Assembly (NCBI RefSeq): GCF_002161805.1
Contig: NZ_NFIP01000009.1
Location: 1 to 64,000 of the forward strand
Source: Collinsella sp. An307
GTDB lineage: Bacteria; Actinomycetota; Coriobacteriia; Coriobacteriales; Coriobacteriaceae
Length of the DNA stretch: 64,000 nucleotides
Reading direction: 5' to 3'
Shown here: positions 53,194-57,610 of the stretch, one piece after another
Numbering within the stretch: the stretch's first letter is position 1
How the letters are laid out: each line of letters starts with the position of its first letter
Translations under genes and position numbers: made by a program
Notes under the pieces: generated by a model
What the model saw: the letters and a program-made list of their open reading frames with translations, nothing else
Database searches by the model: none
Told to the model about the DNA's origin: nothing

Positions 53194-53468
53194 CGCGGGC
53201 GTCCTCTCCTTATGCGCCGGGCGATGCCCGGGAGTGAGCGGCTGGTTATTTCTATTATGCGCAGGCAACATGCGCTTTGCGAAAAACACAGGTTTGTAGG
53301 TTCGCCGTCACCTGCTGCCACTTGAGCCCCTCGCATGATTCAGCCCGCCGCTTGCGGGTACCATGACCATCATGAACCGCCGTGCGACGCGCGCATGCGC
53401 CGCGCAAACAGATAGACGGGCAGCCGCGTTGCTCGGCCACCCGCACCTTGCAAGAAAGGTCCCGACCC

Positions 53469-56126
53469 GTGCTCGAACTCAAAGGCATCACCAAGGACTA
53501 CCCCTCGGGCGACACCGTCGTCCACGCCCTCAAGGGCATCTCCGTCACCTTTCGCGACCAGGAGTTTGTAAGCATCCTTGGCCAGTCGGGCTGCGGCAAG
53601 ACCACGCTGCTCAACATCATTGGCGGCCTTGACCAGTACACCCGCGGTGACCTTGTTATCAACGGCCGCTCGACCAAAAGCTACCTCGACCGCGACTGGG
53701 ACACCTACCGTAACCACAGTGTGGGCTTTGTGTTTCAGAGCTACAACCTCATTCCGCACCAGACGGTCATCTCCAACGTAGAGATGGCGCTGGTGCTCTC
53801 CGGCACGCCCAAGGCCGAGCGCCGCCGCCGCGCGGAGGAGGCGCTGCGCCGGGTGGGCCTGGGCGAGCACCTCAAGAAGAAGCCCAACCAGCTTTCCGGC
53901 GGGCAGATGCAGCGCGTGGCCATCGCCCGCGCCATTGTGAACGACCCCGAGATCATCCTCGCCGACGAGCCCACCGGCGCGCTTGACACCGAGACCTCCG
54001 TTGAGGTGATGGAGATTTTAAAGGAGCTCTCGCGCGACCGGCTCGTCATCATGGTCACGCATAACCCGCAGCTGGCGGAGGAGTACTCCGACCGCATCGT
54101 GCGCATCTCGGACGGTCTCATCACAAGCGACACCGCGCCGGTGGATGCAGCGCGCGAGCGTCTCACGCCCGAGGAGATTCAGGCGCACGCCGTGGCGGAC
54201 GTCAAAAAGGGCAAGCGGCAGATGAGCTTCCGCTCGGCGCTCTCGCTTTCTGCCAACAACCTCATGACCAAGAAGGGCCGCACGCTGCTCACGGCGTTTG
54301 CCGGGTCCATCGGCATTATTGGCATTGCGCTTATCCTCTCGCTCTCGGACGGCGCGCAGAACTACATTGCCGAGACCGAGCAGTCCACTATGGGAAGCTA
54401 CCCGCTCACCATCAACGAGACGAGCGTGGACATGGCGAGCATGATGACCTCGATGATGGGCTCTGCCGCAGAGACCGCCGCGAGCGCGGTGGAGGAGGGC
54501 ACGGTCGCCTCCAAGGACCTGGTGACCGACATGGTGACCGGCGTGGCCGATGGCGCCAACGAGAACGATATGCCCACCATTAAGGAGTGGCTCGACTCCA
54601 ACCCCGATGACATTGACGACATCACCACGGCGATCGAGTACACCTACGACGTGCCGCTCAACATCTACGCAAGCGACACCTCGGACGGCCCCGTGCAGGT
54701 GAACCCTGCGACCGTGATGGACGCGCTGGGGTTCTCCATTGGCGAGACGCAGGGCGAGATGCTCTCTTCCATGGGCTCGTCCTACGACGTCTTTACCGAG
54801 CTTCTGCCCAACCGTGACACGTGGAAGACCGATTACGAGGTCCTTGCTGGGCATATGCCCGAGAGCTGGGACGAGGTCGTGCTGTACGTGGACGAGAACG
54901 GGCGCATCTCCGACTACACGCTCTATGCGCTGGGGCTGCTTGACCAGAGCGACCTGCGCGGCATGATGGCAGACGTGGTCGCCGGCCGCGAGGTGGAGGA
55001 GGTCGAGGGGACGAGCTACACCTACGACGACCTCATGGGGCTCACGTTCAAGCTCGTGCCCGAGGCGTCGAAGTATGCCGAGCAGGCGGACGGCACATGG
55101 GCAGATAAGAGCGACGACGATGCCTATATGGCGGACGTGATCAACTCCGCCGAAGAGCTGCACGTGGTAGGTATCGTGCGCCCCGCCGAGGGTAACGACG
55201 AGACCAACTGGGGCACGCTGCTCTACACGCCCGAGCTTATTGAGCATGTGATTGAGCTTGGTGACGAGAGCGCCGCCGTGAAGGCGCAGGAGGCGGACCC
55301 CACGACGGACATCTTTACGGGCCTGCCGTTTGAGGAGAGCTCGACCGGGCTCACGATGGAGGCCATCGAGCTCATGCTCGACCAGATTGGTGGCGAGCAG
55401 GCAGCTCAGCTGCAGTCCTATGTGGACGAGCTCCGCGCCGAGGGCCTCACGGACGACGAGATTGCCGAGGCGTTTTCCGAGCAGATGGCGAACCAGACCG
55501 ACAACGCCACCTACGAGGGCAACCTCGAGCTGCTGGGCAAGGGCGACCTCGACAGTCCCTCGACCATCAGCATCTATCCCATCGACTTTGAGGCGAAGGA
55601 AACCATCGACAAGCTCATCGCCGACTACAATGCGCAGATTCGCGCCGACGGTGAGGGGACCGAGATCCAGTACACCGACATTGTGGGCATGCTCATGTCG
55701 AGCGTGACCGACATCGTGAACGCCATCACCTACATCTTGATTGCGTTTGTGGCCATCTCGCTCGTGGTGAGCTCGATCATGATCGGCATCATCACCTATA
55801 TCTCGGTGCTCGAGCGTACGAAGGAGATCGGCATCCTGCGCGCCATCGGTGCGAGCAAGCGCGACGTGAGCCGTATCTTTACGGCGGAGACGTTCATTAT
55901 TGGTCTGGTGAGCGGCCTGCTTGGCGTAGGTATTACGGTGCTTCTGGATATCCCCGTGAACGCGATCATTTACGCGGTCGCCGGGGTGGAGAACTTGGCG
56001 GCGGTGCCGGTTGGTCCGGGTATCGCGCTCGTGGTGATATCGGTTGCGCTCTCGTGGGTGGCGGGCTTGGCGCCCAGCCGCATGGCAGCCAAGAAGGATC
56101 CGGTCACGGCCCTGCGCACGGAGTAG
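53469..56126 (+). CDS. ABC transporter fusion: ATP-binding domain plus FtsX-type permease
   Basis: An 885-residue fusion. Residues 1-230 are an ABC ATPase (Walker A GQSGCGKTT, signature LSGGQMQRVAIARAI, Walker B ILADEPTGALD, switch His in VTHNPQ). From about 250 there is a membrane segment near 285-305, a large extracytoplasmic region (about 310-745) rich in Asp and Glu, and three C-terminal membrane segments (about 755-885) with the FtsX motif VLERTKEIGILRAIGASKRDVSRI. MacB-like proteins normally have this same fused order, with the ATPase first. It may export peptides, lipids or antibiotics. GTG at 53469 with AGAAAGG upstream starts it. It stands alone without a regulator. Confidence 0.9.
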   Translation: MLELKGITKDYPSGDTVVHALKGISVTFRDQEFVSILGQSGCGKTTLLNIIGGLDQYTRGDLVINGRSTKSYLDRDWDTYRNHSVGFVFQSYNLIPHQTVISNVEMALVLSGTPKAERRRRAEEALRRVGLGEHLKKKPNQLSGGQMQRVAIARAIVNDPEIILADEPTGALDTETSVEVMEILKELSRDRLVIMVTHNPQLAEEYSDRIVRISDGLITSDTAPVDAARERLTPEEIQAHAVADVKKGKRQMSFRSALSLSANNLMTKKGRTLLTAFAGSIGIIGIALILSLSDGAQNYIAETEQSTMGSYPLTINETSVDMASMMTSMMGSAAETAASAVEEGTVASKDLVTDMVTGVADGANENDMPTIKEWLDSNPDDIDDITTAIEYTYDVPLNIYASDTSDGPVQVNPATVMDALGFSIGETQGEMLSSMGSSYDVFTELLPNRDTWKTDYEVLAGHMPESWDEVVLYVDENGRISDYTLYALGLLDQSDLRGMMADVVAGREVEEVEGTSYTYDDLMGLTFKLVPEASKYAEQADGTWADKSDDDAYMADVINSAEELHVVGIVRPAEGNDETNWGTLLYTPELIEHVIELGDESAAVKAQEADPTTDIFTGLPFEESSTGLTMEAIELMLDQIGGEQAAQLQSYVDELRAEGLTDDEIAEAFSEQMANQTDNATYEGNLELLGKGDLDSPSTISIYPIDFEAKETIDKLIADYNAQIRADGEGTEIQYTDIVGMLMSSVTDIVNAITYILIAFVAISLVVSSIMIGIITYISVLERTKEIGILRAIGASKRDVSRIFTAETFIIGLVSGLLGVGITVLLDIPVNAIIYAVAGVENLAAVPVGPGIALVVISVALSWVAGLAPSRMAAKKDPVTALRTE

Positions 56127-56247
56127 CCTGGCTTCCCCAGACGCCGCACCTCGGCGCTCAATCGTTGGGCATGGCCGCAAGGCCTATGCCCTCCTCTTTC
56201 GCACCGATCTGCGGCACCTGGGAAACCCAGTCCTGTGTGCGATAAAA

Positions 56248-56311
56248 CTCGACAACTCGACAAATCAAAACGTCGAGTACTCGACAAAACTTGCGTCGAG
56301 TACTCGACGTT
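56248..56311. repeat. 17-base inverted repeat between convergent genes, with nested palindromes
   Basis: Arms at 56269-56285 and 56295-56311 are perfect reverse complements (17 bases) around a nine-base loop. Each arm contains the 14-base palindrome GTCGAGTACTCGAC (56272-56285 and 56295-56308). Half-sites CTCGAC occur at 56248-56253 and 56256-56261. The region lies between two genes that end toward each other. It could be a bidirectional terminator or a protein-binding site. Confidence 0.75.
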
Positions 56312-56337
56312 ATGTTGGGCGTATTGCCTGGGCGGCC

Positions 56338-57102
56338 CTACAGGTCGCGGTAGTCGATGAGCTTGAGGTCGGGTTGGGCCTCGAGCCAAGCGCGGAGCTC
56401 GGGCGAGACGAGGGCATCGACCTCTTTGGTGCGGTCCTCGGTGAGCGAGGACGTGCTCAGAATGAACTGGTCCAGGTAGCCGGGGTGGCAGACAAATACC
56501 ACGGTCTCATCGGTGCCCATCTCCTCCACCGTTTCGCGGATCGCGGCGGCAGGATTGTAGCCGGGCGTCATCGAGCGCATCACCATGCGGACGGGCGTGG
56601 TGCCGCACGTGACCGTTGCTGCCGGATCGAACGATGCCGCCTGATAGCGGTAGCCATGCTCGCGCGCAACGTGCTCGATGGCACGGTTGAGGTTCTCGGA
56701 GACCACGGCGTGCGCCTCGAAGTAGTCCGGGTCGCGTCCCACGACCTCGAGGAAGCGTGCGAGCTGCGCCTCGATCTCTGCGACGGCCTCCTCAAAGACC
56801 ACGAAGTCCTCGCCGCGCTTGAACGCCTCGCGGTAGGTGCGGCTGCTCTTGAACTGGCCGTTCTCGTCAATCAGAGAAGGAATCGCGGCAGGGTCGGAGC
56901 AGGGCGTGCCGAGGCAGAGGTTGGTGTGCTGGCCGATGGCGATGTCTGCATCCCGCACCCAGTCGACGCCGCGCGCCGTTTCGGGCATGTTGGGCATAAC
57001 GCCCACCGATCGGATGAGTCCCTCGTGGACCGTGCGGGCGATACCGACGTTCACCGCGTGCGAATATCCAATGTCATCGGCGCGGATGAGCAGCTGCTTC
57101 AT
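56338..57102 (-). CDS. YdjC/ChbG-family carbohydrate deacetylase
   Basis: This 254-residue protein is of the YdjC (ChbG/HpnK) deacetylase family. The metal motif DD (IRADDIGYS, about residues 7-15) and two His sites (IGQHTNLCLG near 57, FEAHAVV near 120) fit it. The family removes acetyl groups from N-acetylated sugars such as chitobiose. The start at 57102 has GGGAGG upstream and gives the usual MKQLLIRADDIG. It is a single gene convergent with the ABC fusion. Its substrate could be a host or dietary glycan. Confidence 0.9.
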   Translation of the reverse strand: MKQLLIRADDIGYSHAVNVGIARTVHEGLIRSVGVMPNMPETARGVDWVRDADIAIGQHTNLCLGTPCSDPAAIPSLIDENGQFKSSRTYREAFKRGEDFVVFEEAVAEIEAQLARFLEVVGRDPDYFEAHAVVSENLNRAIEHVAREHGYRYQAASFDPAATVTCGTTPVRMVMRSMTPGYNPAAAIRETVEEMGTDETVVFVCHPGYLDQFILSTSSLTEDRTKEVDALVSPELRAWLEAQPDLKLIDYRDL

Positions 57103-57610
57103 GTGAACCTCCCGAAGCGGATTGTCGTCTTCTAGCGCGGCGCGTAACAAGGCAATTGTGCCCTGATGTGAAGACGTTTTTCAGTTATTCAATAATCCTG
57201 CGCAGAGTGCGTGACTATCCAGCATGATGTGCGTCGGATTTCCCAGATAGACGCAGGGGAAGGTGCGGGGGGATACTTCGCCCTTTCGCCTGAGATTATT
57301 GAATAGCTGCATTTCTGAGACAGGGGCGCGGCAATTTGAAGCGGGCGCAGCCCAGCCGAATCGCAAGAACGATGTGCAGCAAAATGTATTGACGCTATAT
57401 CAATAAACGTCAATTTGTGCAGAGCATAAGGAGAATGGAGAAATCCGAGGTTCTCAGCTATATCTCAAAATCCTTAACTAAAATACTTTAACTAAGTTTT
57501 TTGAGAGAATTGGTTGTGAGCCGCTCTCAATAGACTCCGGCGCGTCGGCAGATCCGCGTGGCGCTCCGTTCACACGAGATGAAGGGCTTCGCGCCCGGAA
57601 AGGACAGATC
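57103..57610. other. long leader/intergenic region before acpP with several repeats
   Basis: No gene is certain here. It contains a possible MITE at 57182-57309, an inverted repeat ATTGACG/CGTCAAT (57388-57394 and 57408-57414), a direct repeat TTAACTAA (57474-57481 and 57488-57495) and an inverted repeat TTGAGAG/CTCTCAA (57501-57507 and 57524-57530). The last three could be operator or leader elements controlling fatty-acid genes. Confidence 0.6.
57182..57309. mobile_element. possible MITE-like element
   Basis: The ends carry imperfect inverted repeats: CAGTTATTCAATAATCC (57182-57198) on the left and, on the right, the reverse complement CAGCTATTCAATAATCTC (57292-57309). The element is 128 bases long. 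No clear target duplication is visible. A short minus-strand frame inside (SEMQLFNNLRRKGEVSPRTF and so on) may be fortuitous. Confidence 0.4.

Follow-up and report, generated by a model that had tools for sequence, protein, structure and literature searches.

Structure of the locus

The window is a stretch of 64,000 nucleotides from Collinsella sp. An307 (positions 1 to 64,000 of contig NZ_NFIP01000009.1; this genome is G000 in our set). Two genes converge on the gap studied here: an FtsX-type ABC transporter gene on the plus strand ends at 56126 and ydjC on the minus strand ends at 56338. The gap contains an array of repeated half-sites arranged in units, which we call FF (tandem half-sites) and RF (palindrome); RR denotes the fourth unit of the full form. 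The features are as follows.

53382–56126, plus strand: ABC transporter with FtsX-like permease, converging neighbour; an orthologue lies upstream of the array in all eight array-bearing genomes
56247–56262, plus strand: FF unit, two tandem ACTCGACA at a spacing of 8; an FF-like pair aligns in 11 arrays
56269–56311, minus strand: terminator-like hairpin in the ydjC orientation with TTGATTTGTC after it; 18 pairs counted, with covariation of the hairpin
56272–56285, no strand: palindrome 1, GTCGAGTACTCGAC, RF unit; left stem arm 56269–56285
56286–56294, plus strand: spacer or loop of 9 nt, AAAACTTGC; the same as the spacers of the gene-bearing G007 upstream and Enorma arrays
56295–56308, no strand: palindrome 2, GTCGAGTACTCGAC, RF unit; right stem arm 56295–56311
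56312–56337, plus strand: right flank, 26 nt to the ydjC stop codon, without an RR unit in the alignment with the upstream arrays of G007 and G062
56338–57150, minus strand: YdjC-like (ChbG) gene, converging neighbour

Both copies of the 14-base palindrome are exact and lie 9 nt apart, and the half-sites at 56247 and 56255 are located to the left of both. Residues 56269–56285 pair with 56295–56311 in a 17-bp stem with a loop of 9 nt (fold z of −7.2 for the plus and −6.6 for the minus strand). The first-pass annotation had described the two palindromes, the stem, the further half-sites and the converging genes correctly. It had placed the array at 56248–56311; these limits have to be shifted slightly, to a start at approximately 56246 and an end of the last complete unit at 56308. 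By chance, 0.26 matches to GTCGAGTACTCGAC with up to two mismatches are expected in the window; two such matches occurred in 2 of 100 shuffles, where they were not necessarily exact or adjacent. A genome-wide search for the palindrome had been suggested as a check. Carried out over the whole 2.2-Mb genome with up to one mismatch, it returned a single place, namely that between the ABC transporter gene and ydjC. A search of the array region against Rfam gave six matches, every one far under the gathering score, and a literature search for the exact palindrome string gave no match.

Two further elements were seen in the window. A large imperfect hairpin (56128–56230, arms of 45 nt, 71% complementary, fold z −6.45) lies just past the stop codon of the ABC transporter gene and is probably the terminator of that gene. 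An AT-rich near-palindrome, AACTAAAATACTTTAACTAAGTTTTTT, at 57463–57505 precedes an apparent acyl-carrier-protein gene and may be an operator of the fatty-acid gene cluster. G054 (L047) and G064 (L045) each have a very similar element downstream of the ABC gene.

Occurrence of the array in related genomes

The exact palindrome is present in 4 of 65 genomes of the family (G000, G006, G007 and G062). A generic array pattern, which allows altered centres and up to three mismatches, was found in 8 of 65 (G000, G001, G002, G003, G006, G007, G011 and G062). All eight arrays are located downstream of one and the same ABC gene. This gene gave 61 matches, 30 of which were inspected as loci, the remainder being covered by the whole-genome pattern alone. 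The first-pass annotation would have been contradicted by a site both unique and not conserved in relatives; the site is indeed unique in its genome, but the array recurs in 7 of the 64 other family genomes. G007 corresponds to an uncultured Collinsella MAG and G062 to Enorma phocaeensis; the genomes of G007 and G006 are incomplete (89% and 81%).

Compared with the seven other genomes, the window is 84.7–98.5% identical in the array, 82.1–94.7% at the end of the ABC gene and 62.8–98.3% in the left flank; these figures come from local alignments, which flatter short segments and leave parts of the flanks uncovered. The contents of the gap vary. The ABC gene and the array of G001 are separated by an ATPase-like minus-strand gene (L067 1422–2780), and the gap between ABC gene and ydjC therefore accepts different genes. 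In G011 the ABC gene is followed by the array and then by small reading frames before ydjC.

A gene next to the array

In G007 the same gap holds an extra gene bracketed by arrays on both sides. Its product of 499 amino acids (P0001) contains an SLFN_AlbA_2 domain (E 6e-14) and a HATPase_c_4 domain (E 3e-10) according to Pfam. At E ≤ 1e-20 homologues were found in 2 of 65 family genomes, G007 itself and G062 (77% identical), where the gene follows the ABC gene. Both carriers belong to the four genomes with the exact palindrome, and in both the array lies directly upstream of the gene. The other six of the eight array-bearing genomes lack this gene at the same threshold. Among 396 genomes of the phylum G062 alone had a match at E ≤ 1e-60 (G007 was evidently outside that draw), and G000 had no match to P0001 at E ≤ 1e-3. 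G000 contains two other SLFN_AlbA_2 genes, one of which (G000:C12:96304–96663, L197) has an in-frame stop; from the null search with P0001 we assume that their products do not read the array of the window.

A scan of genome contigs, which detects close relatives only, yielded four gene loci: G007, G062 and two Treponema MAGs at 59% identity. Both Treponema genes have the same half-sites upstream, in the same order and at a period of 23 bp. Their neighbourhood differs from that in Collinsella. Judged by sequence, the neighbouring genes are presumably tsaD and leucine-rich-repeat genes, and no ydjC or ABC gene was recognised beside the arrays in the stretches examined. Since these homologues carry the same array elsewhere, the linkage of array and gene extends beyond the gap between ABC gene and ydjC. 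In one Treponema MAG (L026 2960–3355) a second copy of a 3' part of tsaD immediately precedes the array and the SLFN_AlbA_2 gene, with a presumed leucine-rich-repeat-like gene between both tsaD copies. The one Treponema array scanned for promoters contains a promoter-like match (10 of 12 positions) in which the last half-site provides TCGACA as −35 element, 17 nt before TATACT; 0.4 matches as good as this are expected in shuffles. The same scan of the window and of the Collinsella G007 and Enorma arrays gave no match.

Relatives of P0001 were found in 34 plasmid or phage records. The upstream region was inspected in five of these, at about 40% identity (39–42%); none of the five contains this array, and one (L075) has a different 7-mer three times. 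No relative was found in viral contigs, and four viral-contig matches to the array core look like chance. PADLOC returned partial matches to Argonaute-associated models (46–55 bits, E down to 9e-16), which we took as common SLFN-type domains. A structure model built from four sequences was of low confidence (mean pLDDT 45) and too poor for a fold search. By sequence match alone the AlbA_2 region resembles structure 2kyy, a RecG-related protein (E 3.2e-5), and the HATPase_c_4 region resembles structure 3lmm, an uncharacterized protein (E 1.2e-5); no DNA site is known from these matches.

To our knowledge, little is known of what bacterial SLFN_AlbA_2 products do. The closest studied protein that we found in open-access text is TrlG of Photorhabdus laumondii, from a temperature restriction locus. 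It shares both Pfam domains with P0001, PF04326 preceding PF13749 as there, and is likened to it by these domains alone. According to the main text of PMC7554251, TrlG is encoded by an operon of three genes, the first of which (trlR) resembles a regulator; the terms "palindrom" and "inverted repeat" do not occur in that text. Operator arrays of the SLFN_AlbA_2 family are not described in any of the listed open-access titles and abstract openings or in passages of PMC11621453 and PMC7554251.

Organization of the array

The full form of the array is present in Enorma and G007 and has the unit order FF-RF-RF-RR, which is symmetric overall; in Enorma the arms of 40 nt are 80% complementary. Full arrays have seven half-sites that match at up to one mismatch in 7 and an eighth, weaker one. 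The half-sites of the window and their order FF-RF-RF match the array upstream of the gene, and the RR end is absent. It is likewise absent in G001–G003, G006 and the downstream copy of G007, and an RR-like end is present in G011. Bases of the FF-like pair are altered in some of the 11 aligned arrays, for example in the downstream copy of G007, in G001 and in G011. The window, G006 and the two G007 arrays differ in the spacer (TTGC or GTGT) and in one C/T position. These differences would loosely fit an exchange between array copies, and they are too few for a proof.

Hairpin and terminator

In an alignment of nine arrays 98% of the cells of the hairpin formed between the palindromes are paired. 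Four pairs are changed on both sides, a number reached by 1 of 500 shuffles, and the covariation score was reached by none of 500. For the single palindromes 92% of the cells are paired and no double changes were found. In G001–G003 the centres of the two arms read AA and TT, respectively; in G011 GGGGA stands opposite TCCCC, and the arm has a single wobble at another position. Of the four pairs with double changes, the two at the base of the stem come from the gene-bearing G062 alone, and the change common to G001–G003 may be one event, so that the independent support for covariation amounts to few events. The first-pass annotation had argued that a pure terminator would not need palindromic arms. 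This was half right: the palindromes themselves are not kept across relatives, whereas the hairpin between them is.

Rho-independent terminators occur between convergent genes. Like these, the element in the window has a strong hairpin past the ydjC stop codon and a T-rich tail after it: 17–18 pairs, a moderate tail TTGATTTGTC and a distance of 26 nt from the stop. It differs from them in that two near-palindromes make up its stem and that there are conserved half-sites beyond the stem. Terminator-like matches on the ydjC strand were obtained for the window (18 pairs) and G003 (20 pairs), with T-rich sequence after both. The gene-bearing G007 array also gives a terminator-like match with a T-rich tail, which marks the T-run as characteristic of the lineage and not of orphans. 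No such match was obtained for the long hairpin of Enorma; there the matches are a six-pair minus-strand hairpin within the array and one outside the array. The sole match in Treponema is a seven-pair hairpin on the minus strand. Since the hairpin is kept across relatives and the palindromes are not, a present role as terminator is likely, and we infer from the pattern of changes that this function was kept or added beside ydjC.

Arrays at other SLFN_AlbA_2 loci

SLFN_AlbA_2 (PF04326) genes are present in 57 of 65 family genomes, with 139 matches. From these, 100 loci were picked by hand, omitting some near-identical orthologues; one of the chosen loci, G000:C12, carries an internal stop. The selection still includes orthologues, and the counts of loci are therefore not independent. 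In the 260 nt that precede the domain match a 7-mer is over-repeated at 42 of 100 loci with p ≤ 0.05 and at 28 with p ≤ 0.01; 58 loci are without signal at p ≤ 0.05. Inside the same genes the same statistic gave 6 and 2 of 100, and at TetR loci 3 and 1 of 30, although these control loci seem to include orthologues (many are of one length) and one of them is short. The half-sites differ between subfamilies (ACTCGAC, CTTTCCA, ATCTCTC, TCTCTAA, CTGCGAC, GTCCAGA and others). In 22 hand-picked arrays the spacing of neighbours was 7–13 nt in 70 of 127 cases, 32 of them at 11 or 12, counted without a shuffled control.

At 10 of 100 loci the upstream region is partly repeated after the gene, compared with 0 of 294 mismatched pairs and 1 of 28 TetR loci (21 nt). 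The repeat is the array itself in seven of the ten (L187, L148, L131, L156 of G007, L174, L158 and L191). The best match runs in the direct orientation for all seven, although arrays that are nearly symmetric match in the reverse orientation too. For two of them (G037 and G050) an assembly error is unlikely, as the genomes are single contigs. In L158 the half-sites of the downstream copy are kept and the intervening stretch has drifted, which suggests that this copy is itself used. The remaining three (L181, L175 and L146) were not counted as arrays, since the bulk of each repeat resembles a terminator, a tRNA end or other sequence. Judged by eye, L181 has a terminator- or attenuator-like flanking repeat and L175 a tRNA-like end together with a terminator-like stretch. 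L175 also shows an inverted, array-like match of 36 nt directly past the stop codon and is a possible eighth bracketed case.

A search for the array of the ATCTCTC subfamily found it in 9 of 65 genomes, one of them (G047) without a PF04326 match. There the array is followed by a gene of this subfamily that lacks its first ~99 codons and is otherwise 99.5% identical (L254, G047:C35). As the 5'-shortened gene proved to be present, G047 is not an orphan case, and no second orphan array of this subfamily was found in the 65 genomes.

Proposed origin of the array in the window

In two of the eight array-bearing family genomes an intact gene follows directly on the array, and the Treponema homologues carry the same array; we therefore regard the array as most likely the operator of this gene, orphaned in the window. 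G000 lacks the cognate gene next to the array, and G007 and G062 have it there; as G000 has no match to it at E ≤ 1e-3, the array in G000 is an orphan and not a working operator. We think it reasonably probable that it belonged to an SLFN_AlbA_2/HATPase_c_4 gene that is now absent, and that it was later kept or recruited as the hairpin terminator of ydjC. This agrees with the first-pass annotation in its idea of a remnant of a lost gene, which gains support from the genes at the same place in G007 and Enorma and from the Treponema homologues. A site for a dimeric protein, as was also suggested, is plausible.

Based on the comparison of these loci we propose the following course of events. The complete operator would consist of seven or eight ACTCGACA in four units, FF-RF-RF-RR, with an overall dyad and a period of ~23 bp, and would be located just upstream of the promoter of the gene or overlap it. 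The SLFN_AlbA_2 product probably binds its own array cooperatively as an oligomer and would thereby control its own transcription. Autoregulated repressors of toxin-antitoxin systems and phages have multi-site operators; there, too, several dyad half-sites overlap the gene's own promoter or lie just upstream of it. Unlike in these systems, the half-site varies by subfamily and some arrays are repeated past the stop codon. In G007 recombination between the two direct copies of the array would remove the gene and leave a single array, as in the window, which would have retained three units, FF-RF-RF. Afterwards the orphan array would have been retained, or newly put to use, as a hairpin terminator for the convergent ydjC.

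Gain of the gene at an older array accounts for G007 equally well as its loss. The truncated right end is common to G000, G006 and the downstream copy of G007, and the truncation is therefore perhaps one old event. For the window itself we consider a site that was never filled to be less likely than the leftover of a lost gene. Another possible course, in which units of array and gene enter resident arrays by recombination, would make the array of the window an unoccupied site and not a scar; it appears quite improbable to us. The array-gene-array arrangement at 7 of 100 loci with mostly unrelated sequences would be consistent with it, as would the patchy occurrence of the gene in the phylum together with its presence in Treponema, where one unit comes after the duplicated end of tsaD. 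However, no second array was seen in the 300 nt that follow the gene of Enorma or either Treponema, Pfam detects no recombinase domain in P0001, and the downstream copies are not fresh but diverged (64–93% identical).

The array could also be a native intrinsic terminator of ydjC, or perhaps of both genes, that looks palindromic because of the way its stem is constructed, with the SLFN_AlbA_2 genes lying beside it by chance or by borrowing. The terminator-like matches of the window and G003, the position shortly after the ydjC stop and the paired changes that preserve the hairpin at the expense of the palindromes all point in this direction. We still hold this to be unlikely: the FF half-sites outside the stem are conserved as well, the Treponema array lies upstream of the gene with neither a recognised ydjC nor an ABC gene nearby, and arrays of unrelated sequence precede other SLFN_AlbA_2 genes. 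Hardly any weight can be given to the idea that a dimeric protein acting in trans still uses the site for chromosome organisation, a role which the first-pass annotation had raised. The site is palindromic, conserved and intergenic, but chromosome-organising sites such as parS or matS have multiple dispersed copies in a genome, and this one is found at one place only. Moreover, the cognate protein has no match in G000 at E ≤ 1e-3, and palindromy itself is not kept in G001–G003 and G011.

The preferred reading, an orphaned operator reused as a terminator, makes the array of the window an apparent fossil, a site that seems to have outlived its gene. Where a gene is bracketed by its own array, so that one and the same sequence precedes the promoter and follows the stop codon, the protein would hold its gene at either end, and the direct repeats would allow the gene to be lost or gained as a unit in one step, leaving orphan arrays. 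On the basis of the repeats described here it is conceivable, although we regard it as rather doubtful, that the SLFN_AlbA_2/HATPase_c_4 proteins form a large set of autoregulators with private arrays, that a share of their genes is self-bracketed and that orphan arrays then become terminators. The differing half-sites suggest that protein and site change together. Each array predicts one testable cognate pair of protein and DNA and thus offers a handle on the SLFN_AlbA_2 family.
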